This document shows positions 24,724-42,802 of a stretch of 64,000 nucleotides of DNA, in pieces. The position numbers and the translations under genes were made by a program. Source of the DNA: Peptostreptococcaceae bacterium (GTDB lineage: Bacteria > Bacillota > Clostridia > Peptostreptococcales > Acidaminobacteraceae); contig JAMOQG010000145.1 of assembly GCA_027064135.1 (NCBI GenBank), forward strand, positions 1-64,000. Reading direction: 5' to 3'. The notes beneath the pieces are model-generated. The model saw nothing but the letters and a program-made list of their open reading frames with translations, had not been told where the DNA came from and searched no databases. Numbering within the stretch: the stretch's first letter is position 1; each line of letters begins with the position of its first letter.

Positions 24724-24912
24724 TTTTTCCCTCCTTTTCAAATCGTAATTTAAACACGCCTACGATTCAAGCTCAGCACACAGTACCTGGTGTTCAAATA
24801 TTGTGCTAAACCTACGCCCGTTTCTAGAACGGACAATTCTCGATAGAAACACCAAGAAACTCTAGTTTCTTGCAACCTCCTATCTCATCGCGTAAAGCAG
24901 TGAAACACATAC
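24724..24912 (-). ncRNA. Structured 5' leader of the S10 operon
   Basis: About 190 nt separate the predicted start site from rpsJ. The RNA can form, in order, CAAGAAAC/GTTTCTTG with loop TAGA (24853-24872), CCGTT/AACGG with a 5-nt loop (24818-24832), and AATCGTA/TACGATT with a 13-nt loop (24741-24767), the last just before the ribosome binding site. I see no T-box core and no intrinsic terminator. The remaining bases up to argJ (24948-25029) hold only the argJ terminator. Confidence 0.55.
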
Positions 24913-24918
24913 TTGAAC

Positions 24919-24947
24919 ATTATACTTCATATTTTATTAAATTGCAA
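24919..24947 (-). promoter_or_regulatory. S10 operon promoter
   Basis: The minus strand reads TTGCAA (24942-24947), 17 nt, then a perfect TATAAT (24919-24924). It is placed after the argJ terminator and ahead of the structured leader, so it should drive the whole S10-spc-alpha operon. Confidence 0.75.
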
Positions 24948-24977
24948 TAGTTTTTTTATTATTTTTTTACTATAAAA

Positions 24978-25009
24978 ACAAGAAAAAGAAAGTCCTGTGA
25001 AGAACTTCC
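24978..25009 (-). terminator. Terminator after argJ
   Basis: On the minus strand GGAAGTTC, loop TTCACA and GGACTTTC (25002-25009 with 24988-24995; two G-U pairs) are followed by a T-rich run TTTTTCTTG. It starts 21 nt after the argJ stop. Confidence 0.65.
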
Positions 25010-25029
25010 TTTCAATTAATTTTAATATC

Positions 25030-26232
25030 TTAACTACGATACTCTGCATTTATTTTTACATAATCATATGTTAAATCACATCCCCATGATTTCGCATTAA
25101 ATTTTCCATCATTCATATTAACTTTAATTTCAATTTCAGAATCTGATAATATTTTTGAAGCTACTTTTTCGTTAAATACTAAAGGCTCACCATTTTTCAT
25201 TAACTCTATTTCACCAAAACTACTTTTAAAAATTAAACCAACTCTATTAGGATCCATCTGAGCTCCAGAAGCGCCAAGTGAACTTAACACCCTTCCCCAA
25301 TTTGCATCTTCTCCAAAGAAAGCAGATTTTACAAGACTTGAAGTAATTATTGCTTTCGCAAGAATTTTTGCATCTTTTAAACTTTTTGCATTAATCAAAT
25401 CAACTTTTAATAATTTAGTAGCACCTTCACCATCTCTAGCTATCTCAATTGCTAAAAACTCAGCCAATTCATATAATGCATTTAAAAATTTCTTATAATC
25501 ATCATTTTTCTCTTCTATTAAAGAATGTTTTGCATTTTGATTACTCAGAAGTATGACCATATCATTTGTTGAAGTATCACCATCCACAGAAATCATATTG
25601 TAAGTTTTATCAACCACTTCCGAAAGTGCTTCTTGCATTAACTCTCTAGAAATATTGATATTAGTAATCATAAACCCTAGCATAGTTGCCATATTAGGAT
25701 GTATCATCCCTGATCCTTTCCCCATTCCATTAATAATAATTTCTTCATCTTCAATAAAAAATGAAATATTTCCTTTTTTTTCAAAAGTATCGGTAGTCAT
25801 TATTCCTTTAGGAACTTTATTTAAATTTTCTTCTGACAGTGTATTTTTTAATTTTGAAATTCCGTTTTCAATTTTCTCCATAGGTAATTTTACACCAATT
25901 ACACCTGTAGAAGAAACAAGAACAGAATCTGAATTAATTTTCAATTGCTCTGAAATCAAATCACACATTCTATTCCCATCTTTTATTCCTTGATTCCCGG
26001 TTACTGCATTTGCATTTCCTGAATTTACAATAATCGCTTGAATAGAATTTTTAATTTTTTCTCTACTTATAATAACAGGAGCAGCCACCGTTTTATTTGT
26101 TGTAAACGACCCCGCTGCAATACACGGAGTTTCCGAATAAATGACAGCAAGATCTAAATTTTTGTATTTTATTCCTGAATGAATACTATTTCCTATAAAT
26201 CCATTTATTGTTTTTAAATAGTTATTAATCAT
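25030..26232 (-). CDS. argJ: Glutamate N-acetyltransferase / ornithine acetyltransferase
   Basis: Recycles the acetyl group of N-acetylornithine to glutamate and, if bifunctional, also uses acetyl-CoA. The autoprocessing site with the nucleophilic Thr is in GMIHPNMATMLGFM, and the upstream oxyanion region VSSTGVIGVKLPMEK is intact. The C-terminal AEYRS follows WGCDLTYDYVKINAEY as in the family. 400 aa. It lies 12 nt after argC in a two-gene operon under a candidate ARG-box promoter. Its presence explains why no argA or argE is needed. Confidence 0.96.
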   Translation of the reverse strand: MINNYLKTINGFIGNSIHSGIKYKNLDLAVIYSETPCIAAGSFTTNKTVAAPVIISREKIKNSIQAIIVNSGNANAVTGNQGIKDGNRMCDLISEQLKINSDSVLVSSTGVIGVKLPMEKIENGISKLKNTLSEENLNKVPKGIMTTDTFEKKGNISFFIEDEEIIINGMGKGSGMIHPNMATMLGFMITNINISRELMQEALSEVVDKTYNMISVDGDTSTNDMVILLSNQNAKHSLIEEKNDDYKKFLNALYELAEFLAIEIARDGEGATKLLKVDLINAKSLKDAKILAKAIITSSLVKSAFFGEDANWGRVLSSLGASGAQMDPNRVGLIFKSSFGEIELMKNGEPLVFNEKVASKILSDSEIEIKVNMNDGKFNAKSWGCDLTYDYVKINAEYRS

Positions 26233-26244
26233 ACTTTTCTCTCC

Positions 26245-27282
26245 TTAAATATAATATAAATCGAAATCAATTCCTTTTTTCTCATCAATCCCATACATAA
26301 TGTTCATATTTTGAATCGCTTGTGAAGCCGCACCTTTCATTAAATTATCAATTGCCGAATATAAAATTAAAGTTTTTGAAAACTCATCATAATAATATGA
26401 AATAAAAACTTTATTAGAACGATTTACATCCTTGGTAGAAGGAATGTGGTTTACGATTTCGATAAAATATTCGTTTTCATAACATTCAAAAAAAGCTTTT
26501 TCAATATCTTCCATTGTAACTTGATCTTTTAAACTAACATAAATCGTTGAATATATTCCTCTACTAGAAGGAACAATATGAGGACTAAACAACAAATCAA
26601 TTTTATTTCCCGTTAATTGTCCTAGAATTTCTACAACTTCCGGACTATGACGATGAGATCCAGTTTTGTATGCATAAGTATTATCCTGAATTTCAGTAAA
26701 AAGAAAACTTTCATTTGCTTTTCTTCCTGCTCCACTTACTCCTGTTTTTGAGTCAGCAATAATTTTCCCTTTTAAAAAATTATTTTTTAAAATTGGATAT
26801 AATGGCAAAATCATTGATGTAGGAAAACAACCTGGATTTGCAACATAATTTGATAATGAAATTTCATCTCTAAAAATTTCTGGCAATCCATAAACAAAGT
26901 CTTTAATCATACCTTTTGAAGTATGTTTAAATTCATACCAACTCTCATATATTTTTACATCTTTAATTCTATAGTCTCCTGATAAATCAATAATTTTTAT
27001 TTTTTTTGAATATGCTCTTATTTTTTCAACATATTTCATACTTATTCCATGTGGCAAAGCTAAAAATATCAAATCTACAAATTCAAGTTTTTCCATTGCT
27101 TCTTCCTCATCTACAAGAATACCGTCAATTTTTCCTGAAAACTTTGGATAAATTTCTGAAAACAATTTTCCAGAAAATCTTTTTGAACTCATAAACACAA
27201 TATCAACATCTGCATGTTTTTTTAATAGTGCTATTAATTGCATTCCACCATATCCAGTAGCACCGTAAATACCAACTTTCAT
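26245..27282 (-). CDS. argC: N-acetyl-gamma-glutamyl-phosphate reductase
   Basis: Third step of ornithine synthesis: NADPH-dependent reduction of N-acetylglutamyl phosphate. The nucleotide motif GIYGATGYGGMQLI is at the N-terminus and the catalytic Cys lies in VANPGCFPTS. The ORF-track start at 27300 is upstream of a GGGGTGA; ATG 27282 (MKVGIYGATG) is the correct start. 345 aa. Confidence 0.97.
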   Translation of the reverse strand: MKVGIYGATGYGGMQLIALLKKHADVDIVFMSSKRFSGKLFSEIYPKFSGKIDGILVDEEEAMEKLEFVDLIFLALPHGISMKYVEKIRAYSKKIKIIDLSGDYRIKDVKIYESWYEFKHTSKGMIKDFVYGLPEIFRDEISLSNYVANPGCFPTSMILPLYPILKNNFLKGKIIADSKTGVSGAGRKANESFLFTEIQDNTYAYKTGSHRHSPEVVEILGQLTGNKIDLLFSPHIVPSSRGIYSTIYVSLKDQVTMEDIEKAFFECYENEYFIEIVNHIPSTKDVNRSNKVFISYYYDEFSKTLILYSAIDNLMKGAASQAIQNMNIMYGIDEKKGIDFDLYYI

Positions 27283-27302
27283 ATAATCACCCCTTAACAT
27301 TT

Positions 27303-27316
27303 TGTATAATTATACA
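27303..27316. promoter_or_regulatory. ARG-box-like palindrome on the argC promoter
   Basis: TGTATAATTATACA is a perfect 14-bp palindrome of the size and AT-rich character of ArgR/AhrC boxes. It covers the -10 of the argC promoter, so binding of an arginine repressor would block transcription. No argR gene is in the window. Confidence 0.6.
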
Positions 27317-27337
27317 CATAAATTACTAAATATGCAA
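27309..27337 (-). promoter_or_regulatory. argCJ promoter
   Basis: Minus-strand TTGCAT (27332-27337), exactly 17 nt, then TATAAT (27309-27314). It starts transcription about 25 nt before argC. Confidence 0.75.
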
Positions 27338-27353
27338 ATTATTTAGAATTATA

Positions 27354-27382
27354 TTGCATATTAATACATTTTAGTGTATAAT
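27354..27382 (+). promoter_or_regulatory. argBD promoter
   Basis: Plus-strand TTGCAT (27354-27359), exactly 17 nt, then TATAAT (27377-27382), the same -35, spacing and -10 as the facing argC promoter. Confidence 0.75.
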
Positions 27383-27388
27383 TATCGA
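27355..27388. promoter_or_regulatory. Tandem ARG-box-like sites on the argB promoter
   Basis: TGTATAATTATCGA (27375-27388) matches the argC-side palindrome at 12 of 14 positions and covers the -10. TGCATATTAATACA (27355-27368) matches at 11 of 14 and covers the -35. They start 20 bp apart, about two helical turns, as expected for two boxes bound by one ArgR hexamer. Confidence 0.5.
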
Positions 27389-27414
27389 CAATTACTATAA
27401 ATGGAGATGATCTT

Positions 27415-28281
27415 ATGTATAAAAAAAAAGAAATGGTTAACAATTTAATTGAAGCATTACCGTATATAGAAAAATTTAGAAATAAAATTTTTGTTATCAA
27501 ATATGGCGGTAGTATTATTGGAGATAATGTAAATAAAATTGCATTTGCTAAAGACATATCTCTACTAACACATTTAGGAATGAAAACAATTATAATTCAC
27601 GGAGGTGGCAAACATATTAACAAACATCTTTTAGAAAAAGGAATTAAATCAACTTTTCACAAAGGTTATAGAATTACTGATTCAAATACAATAAACGAAG
27701 TTGAAATGGTTCTTTCAGGGCATCTTAACAAAGATATTACTTTGCTTCTTAATAATTTTGGAACTAAAGCAGTAGGTATCAACGGAAAAGATGCCGGACT
27801 CATAAAAAGCAAAAAGAAAATTATAGACGATGAAGTTGATATAGGTCACGTCGGAGAAATTATAAATATTAACACTGAATTTTTGGAGTTATTATTAGAA
27901 AAAAATTATATTCCCGTTATTTCTCCAATTGGATATGACAAAGAAGGAAACACTTATAATATTAATGCTGATGATGTTGCAAGTGAAATTGCAAATAGCA
28001 TGAAAGCTGAAAAATTATTTCTAATAAGTGATATTAATGGTATATATACAGATTTAAATGATGAATCAACATTTATAAGCAGATTAAATATAAGCGAATC
28101 AAAAAAGCTAATTATAGATGGCTTAATCAACGGAGGTATGATTCCTAAAATGAATTCATGTATTAATTCCATTGAAAACGGTGTAAAAAGTGTTCACATT
28201 ATTAATGGTAAAATAACACACAGTATTTTACTTGAAGTTTTTACCGATCAGGGAATCGGAACTATGATTGAGGAGTGTTAA
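27415..28281 (+). CDS. argB: Acetylglutamate kinase
   Basis: Phosphorylates N-acetylglutamate. The amino-acid-kinase motifs FVIKYGGSIIGD, IIIHGGGKHINKHL, NINADDVASEIANSMKAEKLFLISDINGIY and GGMIPKMNSCINSIENGV are intact. The N-terminal helix MYKKKEMVNNLIEALPYI is the type found in arginine-sensitive hexameric enzymes, so feedback inhibition by arginine is possible. 288 aa. ATG 27415 has GGAGATGA upstream. Divergent from argC. Confidence 0.96.
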   Translation: MYKKKEMVNNLIEALPYIEKFRNKIFVIKYGGSIIGDNVNKIAFAKDISLLTHLGMKTIIIHGGGKHINKHLLEKGIKSTFHKGYRITDSNTINEVEMVLSGHLNKDITLLLNNFGTKAVGINGKDAGLIKSKKKIIDDEVDIGHVGEIININTEFLELLLEKNYIPVISPIGYDKEGNTYNINADDVASEIANSMKAEKLFLISDINGIYTDLNDESTFISRLNISESKKLIIDGLINGGMIPKMNSCINSIENGVKSVHIINGKITHSILLEVFTDQGIGTMIEEC

Positions 28282-28282
28282 A

Positions 28283-29440
28283 ATGAGCTTAATGAAAACA
28301 TATAAAAGATTTAACTTAAATTTTGTAGAAGGTAGTGGAGTTTTTCTTATTGAAAAAAATGGAGAAAAATATCTTGATTTTGTAGCTGGTGTTGCAGTAA
28401 ATGTTCTGGGTCATTCAAATCCAGAAATTGTAAATGTTATTAAAAATCAAGCTTCAAAATTAATTCATATTTCAAATTTATATTATGATGATAATCAATT
28501 ATCATTAGCCGATAAACTTGTTGGTCTTTCTGGCTTTTCATCTGTATTTTTTACAAATAGCGGAACTGAATCAATTGAAGGGGCATTAAAAATCGCTAAG
28601 AAATATGGTAAAAATAAAAGAAAAGATAAAATTATATATATGAATCAATCATTTCACGGAAGAACACTTGGCGCTCTTTCTGTAACAGGACAAGAAAAAT
28701 ATCAAAAAGATTTTACTCCTTTAATCAAAAATGTAATCCCTGTAAACTTTAACGATGTTGAGGATTTAAAAAATAAAATGAATAATGAAGTATCAGCTGT
28801 TATTGTTGAACCTATTCAAGGTGAAGGCGGAATAAATGAAATTAATAATGATTTTCTAAATGAAATAAGATCGTTATGCGATAAATATGATTCGCTTTTG
28901 ATTTTTGATGAGGTTCAAGCTGGTGTTGGAAGAACTGGAAAGTTTTTTGCTTTTGAAAATTATAATATCAAACCTGATATTATCACCATGGCAAAAGGCC
29001 TTGGCGGCGGTGTTCCAATAGGAGCATTAATTGCAAATAAAAAAGCCGATGTTTTTACTTATTCAGATCACGGATGTACTTTTGGCGGAAATCCTCTTGT
29101 AACTGCTGTTGGAAATAAAATCGTAGATATCGTTAGTAATAAAGAATTTCTAGAAGAAGTTGTTACAAAAGGAGATTATTTAAAAATAAAACTTACTGAA
29201 TTAAGTGGAAATTTCGATTTCGTAAAAAAAGTTAAAGGAAAAGGATTAATGATTGGCGTAGAAATAGATACAAGTAAAGTTGCTATAAAGAAAATTGTTG
29301 AAACTGCAATTACAAACAAACTTCTAATAATTGGTGCTGGTTCTAACACAATTCGTCTTGTTCCTCCGCTAACTGTAACTATTGAAGAAATAGATTTATT
29401 TATTAAATTATTCGAAAAAACGTTAAAAACATGTTATTAA
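28283..29440 (+). CDS. argD: Acetylornithine aminotransferase
   Basis: PLP enzyme making N-acetylornithine. It shows the PLP-binding motifs: FTNSGTESIEGALKIAKKY, NQSFHGRTLGALSVTGQ, LIFDEVQAGVGRTGKFFAFE and the Schiff-base Lys in ITMAKGLGGGVPIGA. ATG 28283 (MSLMKTYKRFN) has GAGGAG at 7 nt and begins 1 nt after the argB stop; the track start at TTG 28268 lies inside argB. 385 aa. argF, argG and argH are not in the window. Confidence 0.95.
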   Translation: MSLMKTYKRFNLNFVEGSGVFLIEKNGEKYLDFVAGVAVNVLGHSNPEIVNVIKNQASKLIHISNLYYDDNQLSLADKLVGLSGFSSVFFTNSGTESIEGALKIAKKYGKNKRKDKIIYMNQSFHGRTLGALSVTGQEKYQKDFTPLIKNVIPVNFNDVEDLKNKMNNEVSAVIVEPIQGEGGINEINNDFLNEIRSLCDKYDSLLIFDEVQAGVGRTGKFFAFENYNIKPDIITMAKGLGGGVPIGALIANKKADVFTYSDHGCTFGGNPLVTAVGNKIVDIVSNKEFLEEVVTKGDYLKIKLTELSGNFDFVKKVKGKGLMIGVEIDTSKVAIKKIVETAITNKLLIIGAGSNTIRLVPPLTVTIEEIDLFIKLFEKTLKTCY

Positions 29441-29446
29441 ACAAAA

Positions 29447-29485
29447 AAACTATCGTATAGCAATCAGATTACTATACGATAGTTT
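29447..29485. terminator. Bidirectional terminator between argD and tuf1
   Basis: A 14-bp stem (29447-29460 with 29472-29485; core AACTATCGTATAG) with an 11-nt loop. A-rich sequence on the left and T on the right make it usable for both convergent genes. Confidence 0.8.
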
Positions 29486-29491
29486 AAAGTT

Positions 29492-30702
29492 TTAATTATT
29501 CAATAATAGAAATAATAGATCCAGCGCCTACTGTTCTTCCACCTTCACGAATTGAGAATTTTACGTTTTCTTCAATTGCGATTGGTCCTATTAATTGGAT
29601 TTCCATTTCTACGTTATCTCCAGGCATACACATTTCTACGCCTTCTGGCAAGTTTACTTCACCAGTGATATCTGTTGTTCTGAAATAAAATTGTGGTCTG
29701 TATCCGTCAAAGAATGGTGTATGTCTTCCGCCCTCTTCTTTTTTAAGTACATATACTTGTGCCATAAATTTTGTATGTGGGTGAATTGATCCAATTTTAG
29801 CTAATACTTGACCTCTTTGGATTTCTTCTCTTTTGATTCCTCTTAATAATAATCCTACGTTGTCTCCCGCTCTTCCTTCATCCAATAACTTCTTGAACAT
29901 TTCAACGCCTGTTACTACTAACTGTCTTGTTTCTGGGTGTAATCCTACAAGCTCTACTGTATCTTGTACTTTTACTATTCCTCTTTCGATTCTTCCTGTA
30001 GCTACTGTTCCTCTTCCTTTGATTGAGAATACATCTTCTACTGGTAATAAGAAATCTTTATCTGTTTCTCTTACTGGTTCTGGTATATACGAGTCTAAAG
30101 TAGCTGCTAATTCCATTACTTTATCTCCCCATTCACTTGCTGGATCTTCTAATGCTAATAATGCTGATCCTCTTATGATTGGTGTTTCTTCTGAATCAAA
30201 TCCGTACTCTTCTAATAATTCTTGTACTTCCATCTCTACTAATTCTAATAATTCTTCGTCGTCTACCATATCACATTTGTTTAAGAATATGATTAATGCT
30301 GGAACACCTACTTGTCTTGCTAACAAGATATGTTCTCTTGTTTGTGGCATTGGACCGTCTGCTGCTGATACTACCAAAATCGCTCCGTCCATTTGTGCTG
30401 CTCCTGTGATCATGTTTTTAACGTAATCAGCATGGCCTGGGCAATCTACGTGTGCGTAGTGTCTATTTTCTGTTTCATATTCTACGTGAGCAGACGAAAT
30501 TGTGATTCCTCTTTCTCTTTCTTCTGGTGCTTTATCGATGTTTTCAAAATCAACTTTTTCACCTAATCCTGTTCTTACGTTTAATACTTTTGTTATTGCA
30601 GCTGTTAATGTAGTTTTACCGTGATCTACGTGTCCAATTGTTCCTACATTTACATGTGGTTTATTTCTTTGAAATGTTTCCTTTGCCATTTTAATTCCTC
30701 CT
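29492..30702. repeat. Direct repeat copy 1 (tuf gene)
   Basis: A segment of about 1,211 bp that reads the same as 45049-46259. The match begins at TTAATTATT just past the stop codon and ends within the AATTCCTCCT ribosome binding site; flanks differ immediately outside. The shadow ORFs on the other strand are identical as well, which supports identity of the DNA, not only of the protein. Confidence 0.9.
29496..30689 (-). CDS. tuf: Elongation factor Tu (copy 1, str operon)
   Basis: Delivers aminoacyl-tRNA to the ribosome. G motifs [23 protein letters not shown] and NKCDMVD are intact, as is the C-terminal barrel ending [18 protein letters not shown] 30689 ([16 protein letters not shown]) is the start; the track extension to 30740 only reads into the spacer and fusA. 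397 aa, identical to the protein at 45053-46246. It is the last gene of rpsL-rpsG-fusA-tuf, 22 nt after fusA, followed by a terminator. Confidence 0.98.
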
Positions 30703-42647: not shown

Positions 42648-42680
42648 CATGTACAACACTTTGTTTTTAGCATATCATCC
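42648..42680. repeat. 33-bp direct repeat, copy 2 (promoter-proximal)
   Basis: Identical to 42536-42568, offset by 112 nt, with unrelated flanks. On the minus strand it opens the tiny ORF MLKTKCCTCGLLIWKYY and begins 3 nt after the attenuator T-run. Confidence 0.9.
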
Positions 42681-42683
42681 AAT

Positions 42684-42710
42684 AAAAAAGCCTTTCAAAT
42701 ATAGAAAGGC
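42684..42710 (-). terminator. Attenuator terminator in the rplJ leader
   Basis: Minus-strand GCCTTTC, 7-nt loop, GAAAGGC, then TTTTTTATT. It lies about 90 nt after the predicted transcription start and over 250 nt before rplJ, so it should be conditional. Confidence 0.75.
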
Positions 42711-42802
42711 ATAATTAGGCATAAATAAATTTATTTAATACCTCGGTAGGAAATTAAGCTTTCGCACCTACTGTCTACAGCCAATATTCATTTTCAATAA
42801 AT

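Follow-up and report, generated by a model that had tools for sequence, protein, structure and literature searches.

The region between argC and argB most plausibly forms a divergent, ArgR-controlled double promoter in which each promoter would carry two ARG boxes, one on its -35 and one on its -10 element (probability roughly 0.88). What can be read directly from the DNA comprises genes, promoter-like elements and four boxes, the way these boxes are spaced and conserved, and the presence of an ArgR gene. From these we infer that ArgR binds the boxes, that it needs arginine to do so and that repression is the outcome. The finding is ordinary in kind, a textbook type of control, with a layout that is unusually clean and conserved: repressor site and promoter appear to occupy the same letters, the -35 and the -10 each being half of an ARG box at the spacing of a single hexamer.

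Two promoters and four boxes between argC and argB

The argC-argB intergenic region is 132 bp long and has a GC content of 20%, compared with 30% for the window (the whole stretch of DNA analyzed, 64,000 nucleotides). Both promoters read TTGCAT-N17-TATAAT, leftward for argC and rightward for argB (Table 1). In its exact form this arrangement is found in the window at these two sites only, against an expectation of 0.087 from hexamer counts. The earlier note had described the same -35, spacer and -10 in opposite directions, with a palindrome or a close relative of it on each -10, and its letters and coordinates are right: TGTATAATTATACA is perfect at argC, and TGTATAATTATCGA at argB agrees with it at 12 of 14 positions, differing by two letters.

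Table 1. Features of the argC-argB region and of the related arginine loci. Positions refer to the window unless a locus or contig is named.
Feature	Location	Strand	Remarks
argJ, ornithine acetyltransferase / N-acetylglutamate synthase	25030..26232	-	TIGR00120
argC, N-acetyl-gamma-glutamyl-phosphate reductase	26245..27282	-	TIGR01850; start codon ATG at 27282, leftward
ARG box on argC -10, TGTATAATTATACA	27303..27316		perfect palindrome, 7/7 symmetric pairs
argC -10, TATAAT	27314-27309	-	17-nt spacer from -35
Weaker ARG box on argC -35, TGCATATTTAGTAA on minus strand	27323..27336		less conserved than the argC -10 box
argC -35, TTGCAT	27337-27332	-	TTGATT in 4/7 genomes
argB -35, TTGCAT	27354-27359	+	same in 7/7 genomes of the clade
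ARG box on argB -35, TGCATATTAATACA	27355..27368		11/12 against the consensus; TGCATAAATAT at this place in other families
ARG box on argB -10, TGTATAATTATCGA	27375..27388		5/7 symmetric pairs
argB -10, TATAAT	27377-27382	+	17-nt spacer from -35
argB, acetylglutamate kinase	27415..28281	+	TIGR00761; start codon ATG at 27415, rightward
argD, acetylornithine transaminase	28283..29440	+	TIGR00707; start ATG at 28283 picked by comparison with relative L017
ArgR gene	L034:5290-5739 (G000:C62)		AhrC-like
argG ARG-box pair	C60:1387-1420 (L070:1154-1187)		upstream of argGH-carAB; 20 bp centre-to-centre
argG T-box leader	L070:1237-1450 (G000:C60)		Rfam RF00230, 122.8 bits vs gathering score 93
ARG pair and T-box in G001	L144:1501-1534 and 1586-1798 (G001:C134)		near-identical cassette; 120.2 bits, AGA

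The boxes on the -35 elements, which were absent from that note, better explain why one and the same -35, off the consensus, recurs at both promoters. TTGCAT probably makes up one half of an ARG box, namely a T followed by the half-site TGCAT, and this would account for its departure from the usual TTGACA at both promoters. Published ARG boxes have half-sites TGAAT and TGCAT in their consensus sequences (PMC5291005), overlap -10 and -35 elements and bind the hexamer as pairs (PMC5291005, PMC6640053, PMC9245794). The half-site consensus from L. lactis is WGHATADW, which TGTATAAT and TGCATATT fit (PMC6586332). Measured against the box consensus TGNATWWWWATNCA, itself shaped partly by these very sites, the box at 27303 matches at 12/12 positions, those at 27355 and 27375 at 11/12, and the argC -35 box at 10/12. 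The distance from the -35 box to the -10 box is exactly 20 bp centre-to-centre at argC and at argB alike, and these are the two best 20-bp pairs of the window (22/24 each; next best 17).

A mirror layout could also arise in the absence of any regulator, by inverted duplication or because two AT-rich promoters happen to look alike, and both the low GC content of the region and its 46-nt arms, which are 74% complementary in this genome, are compatible with such an origin. We consider this exceedingly improbable. A pair score of 22 was reached by 0 of 300 shuffles of the same intergenic region, and the likeness of the arms is lost in relatives while the box letters are kept: the 35-bp stretches of argC and argB agree at 27/35 positions here, as against 16-21/35 in six relatives, including G001 of the same genus. 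On these alignments, it is the boxes that are conserved and not the overall mirror likeness.

The argJC/argBD genes are located between rpsJ and tuf (window 24741-29496), where they split the ribosomal gene clusters str and S10. Clostridiaceae bacterium HSG29 (L017), the closest named relative, has these genes in the same rpsJ-argJC/argBD-tuf order, whereas in G029 and G017 argB lies at most 10 kb from argG and carA. Where argD and tuf converge, a long stem-loop of 18 pairs (29447-29485) is likely a two-way terminator. Elsewhere in the window, a match to Rfam RF00557, the ribosomal protein L10 leader, lies at 42675-42798 on the minus strand.

Conservation of the boxes in relatives

Seven genomes from four genera were compared. 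Besides this genome they comprise six relatives, whose ArgB proteins share 64-92% identity with the one encoded here. In the alignment every column of TGTATAATTATACA at the argC -10 is invariant in all seven, an invariance that extends to 8 positions outside the -10 hexamer, including the arm TGTATA. At argB the left arm and centre of the -10 box are conserved, while the downstream arm varies (TTATCGA, TTAACAA, TTATTTA, TTATCAG). Because TATAAT itself lies within the palindrome, it is hard to tell operator constraint from promoter constraint at argB.

A variable arm that leaves mainly the promoter hexamers conserved could mean that the argC operator alone is real, that the argB box is a half-site-like -10 and -35, and that argB is constitutive or only indirectly affected. 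We regard this as unlikely, given that the invariant argB -35 is TTGCAT rather than the usual TTGACA, that the TG preceding the argB TATAAT is also invariant in the seven genomes, and that the argB pair score of 22/24 equals that of argC. Moreover, in other families of the order, in which the -35 position reads TTGCATAAATAT or TTGAATAAATAT, the argB -35 box position continues as TGCATAAATAT, which fits an ARG box. Control of both promoters by ArgR is the reading that we carry forward, with the argC operator probably the tighter of the two. The earlier suggestion that the two promoters are matched in strength is not supported: the argC -35 departs from TTGCAT in four of the seven genomes (Table 1), the argB -10 box varies in its downstream arm, and identical hexamers alone do not set strength.

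ArgR and a predicted arginine regulon

The earlier note had made shared arginine control hinge on an ArgR gene, and a search of the genome found one, with both of the expected domains over cut-off: PF01316 (N-terminal, DNA-binding) and PF02863 (C-terminal, arginine-binding and oligomerisation). The protein also exceeds the cut-offs of the NCBIfam argR models NF001680 and TIGR01529 and aligns over nearly its full length with the solved AhrC-type structures 1f9n and 1b4a. The recognition-helix stretch TQATVSRDIKEL is common to this ArgR and AhrC-type proteins, in full with 1f9n, as is a GDDT stretch. The gene order is dxs-argR-recN, dxs and recN having been named by reading their translations. 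ArgR is present in relatives G003, G004, G017, G029 and G002; none turned up in G001, the nearest relative (genome 86% complete), or in G023 (62% complete). Upstream of dxs-argR-recN we also observed an OLE RNA (Rfam RF01071, 350 bits; L034:2342-2859, G000:C62), flanked by a polyprenyl synthetase-like gene and a small membrane-protein gene.

The spacing of the boxes was compared across arginine loci. In this analysis 14-mers were scored against TGNATAWWTATNCA, and the scores of two boxes were added for all spacings between 14 and 40. For the argC/argB regions the mean of the best pairs peaks sharply at 20 bp (20.8, with other spacings at most 18.6), and the argG regions, taken separately, also peak at 20 bp (21.0, others at most 18.8). 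Since the argG pairs lie off the -35/-10 frame, a 17-nt promoter spacer does not impose the distance of 20 bp.

We also scanned the seven whole genomes with the pair pattern, allowing up to three mismatches. In this genome it matches at four places, argG (1 mismatch), argC (2), argB (2) and one other (3), while the reversed control gives one match and the pattern at 21-bp spacing gives none. The fourth pair (C19:144826), flanked by genes resembling a sigma-54-type activator and a dehydrogenase, is likely due to chance because the reversed control also yields one. No convincing box was found upstream of argF or argR.

Single boxes are a poorer guide. The 2.68-Mb genome contains a single exact copy of the 14-mer TGTATAATTATACA, the one at argC, and an exact-text literature search for this palindrome returned only an unrelated LexA table. 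A genome search for single boxes at up to two mismatches gives background levels (68 matches vs 69 in the reversed control), and loose single-box copies therefore carry no meaning. The one-mismatch boxes at C44, C124, C128 and C143 fall inside unrelated genes or next to them. We set aside a TGNATAWWTATNCA match at C149, within a radical-SAM-like gene, and another at C123 (L132), which precedes an ArsR-like gene and a metal ATPase, all of these names coming from sequence reading. As a full match, the latter would suit a palindrome-binding regulator other than ArgR acting at the argC -10, and AT-rich palindromes do serve many regulators. We nonetheless think such a regulator very improbable, since 20-bp pairs in this genome are limited to arginine genes and one doubtful site, and ArgR is present.

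Taken together, the ArgR gene, the invariant palindrome, the 20-bp pairs and a pair of the same kind at argG give good support at the sequence level to the shared ArgR control that had been proposed for the two operons. A box spacing of 20 bp, or about two helical turns, would be the layout occupied by one arginine-bound ArgR hexamer. When arginine is plentiful, one hexamer per pair could cover the -35 and -10 and so keep RNA polymerase off argCJ and argBD at the same time; with arginine in short supply, both would be released. It is very probable that one repressor shuts both promoters under arginine plenty. The predicted ArgR regulon of this little-studied clostridial genus is small, consisting of argCJ, argBD and argGH-carAB.

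One branch of this predicted regulon apparently has a second, RNA-based arginine sensor. In this genome argG heads an argG-argH-carA-carB operon (carB being read from position and sequence only), and its promoter, TTGACT-N17-TATACT, sits between the ARG pair and a T-box leader. Alignment to the Rfam model gives the T-box specifier as AGA, arginine, and the same reading gives ATC at ileS leaders in this genome and in G001. In relatives G003, G004, G017 and G029 the ARG pair lies just past the argG -10, and at E values up to 1 their argG regions show no match to the T-box model.

G001 carries a near-identical cassette of ARG pair and arginine T-box. The gene that follows it has the basic amino acid antiporter YfcC as its best family, below the family cut-off; no homologue of this YfcC-like protein was found in our genome, and a search of G001 for argG turned up no full gene. 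Among the readable T-box loci, the roughly half of those fetched that have an exact TGGNACCGCG core, an ARG pair is found at these two only (scores of 22 and 23 vs at most 19). The occurrence of such a cassette in front of an antiporter-like gene in the sister genome suggests that repressor site and RNA sensor may move together as a single unit. We lean somewhat toward a composite arginine control in this genus, with argCJ and argBD governed by ArgR alone, and argGH-carAB by an ARG pair, a promoter and a T-box responding to uncharged tRNA-Arg. The open literature yielded nothing relevant on a combination of ArgR with an arginine T-box, which is no proof that it is undescribed.

Comparison with known arginine operators

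In the bipolar argE-argCBH system of E. coli, one repressor controls divergent arginine genes, whose promoters point toward each other with a common operator between them. The argC-argB region resembles that system in having divergent arginine genes under what would be a single repressor. It differs in that the promoters here stand back to back, each with a separate box pair.

The pairs themselves are similar to the ARG-box pairs of E. coli, in which two 18-bp boxes lie 3 bp apart and are bound by the hexamer (PMC6640053). Both involve paired boxes for one ArgR hexamer and overlap with the promoter (PMC6640053), although the centre-to-centre distance is 20 bp here versus 21 in E. coli. The TGTATA half-sites found here also differ from the TGAATA of E. 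coli and B. subtilis.

The other close parallel is the argCJBD-carAB-argF/AhrC system of B. subtilis, in which the operator lies over the argC -10 and -35 (PMC9245794). The present region shares with it an AhrC-like repressor and a predicted operator overlapping both argC promoter elements (PMC9245794). Unlike in B. subtilis, argCJ and argBD are divergent here and each has its own box pair, no internal argC operator was seen at a match of at least 11/12, and the half-sites read TGTATA or TGCATA rather than TGAATA.
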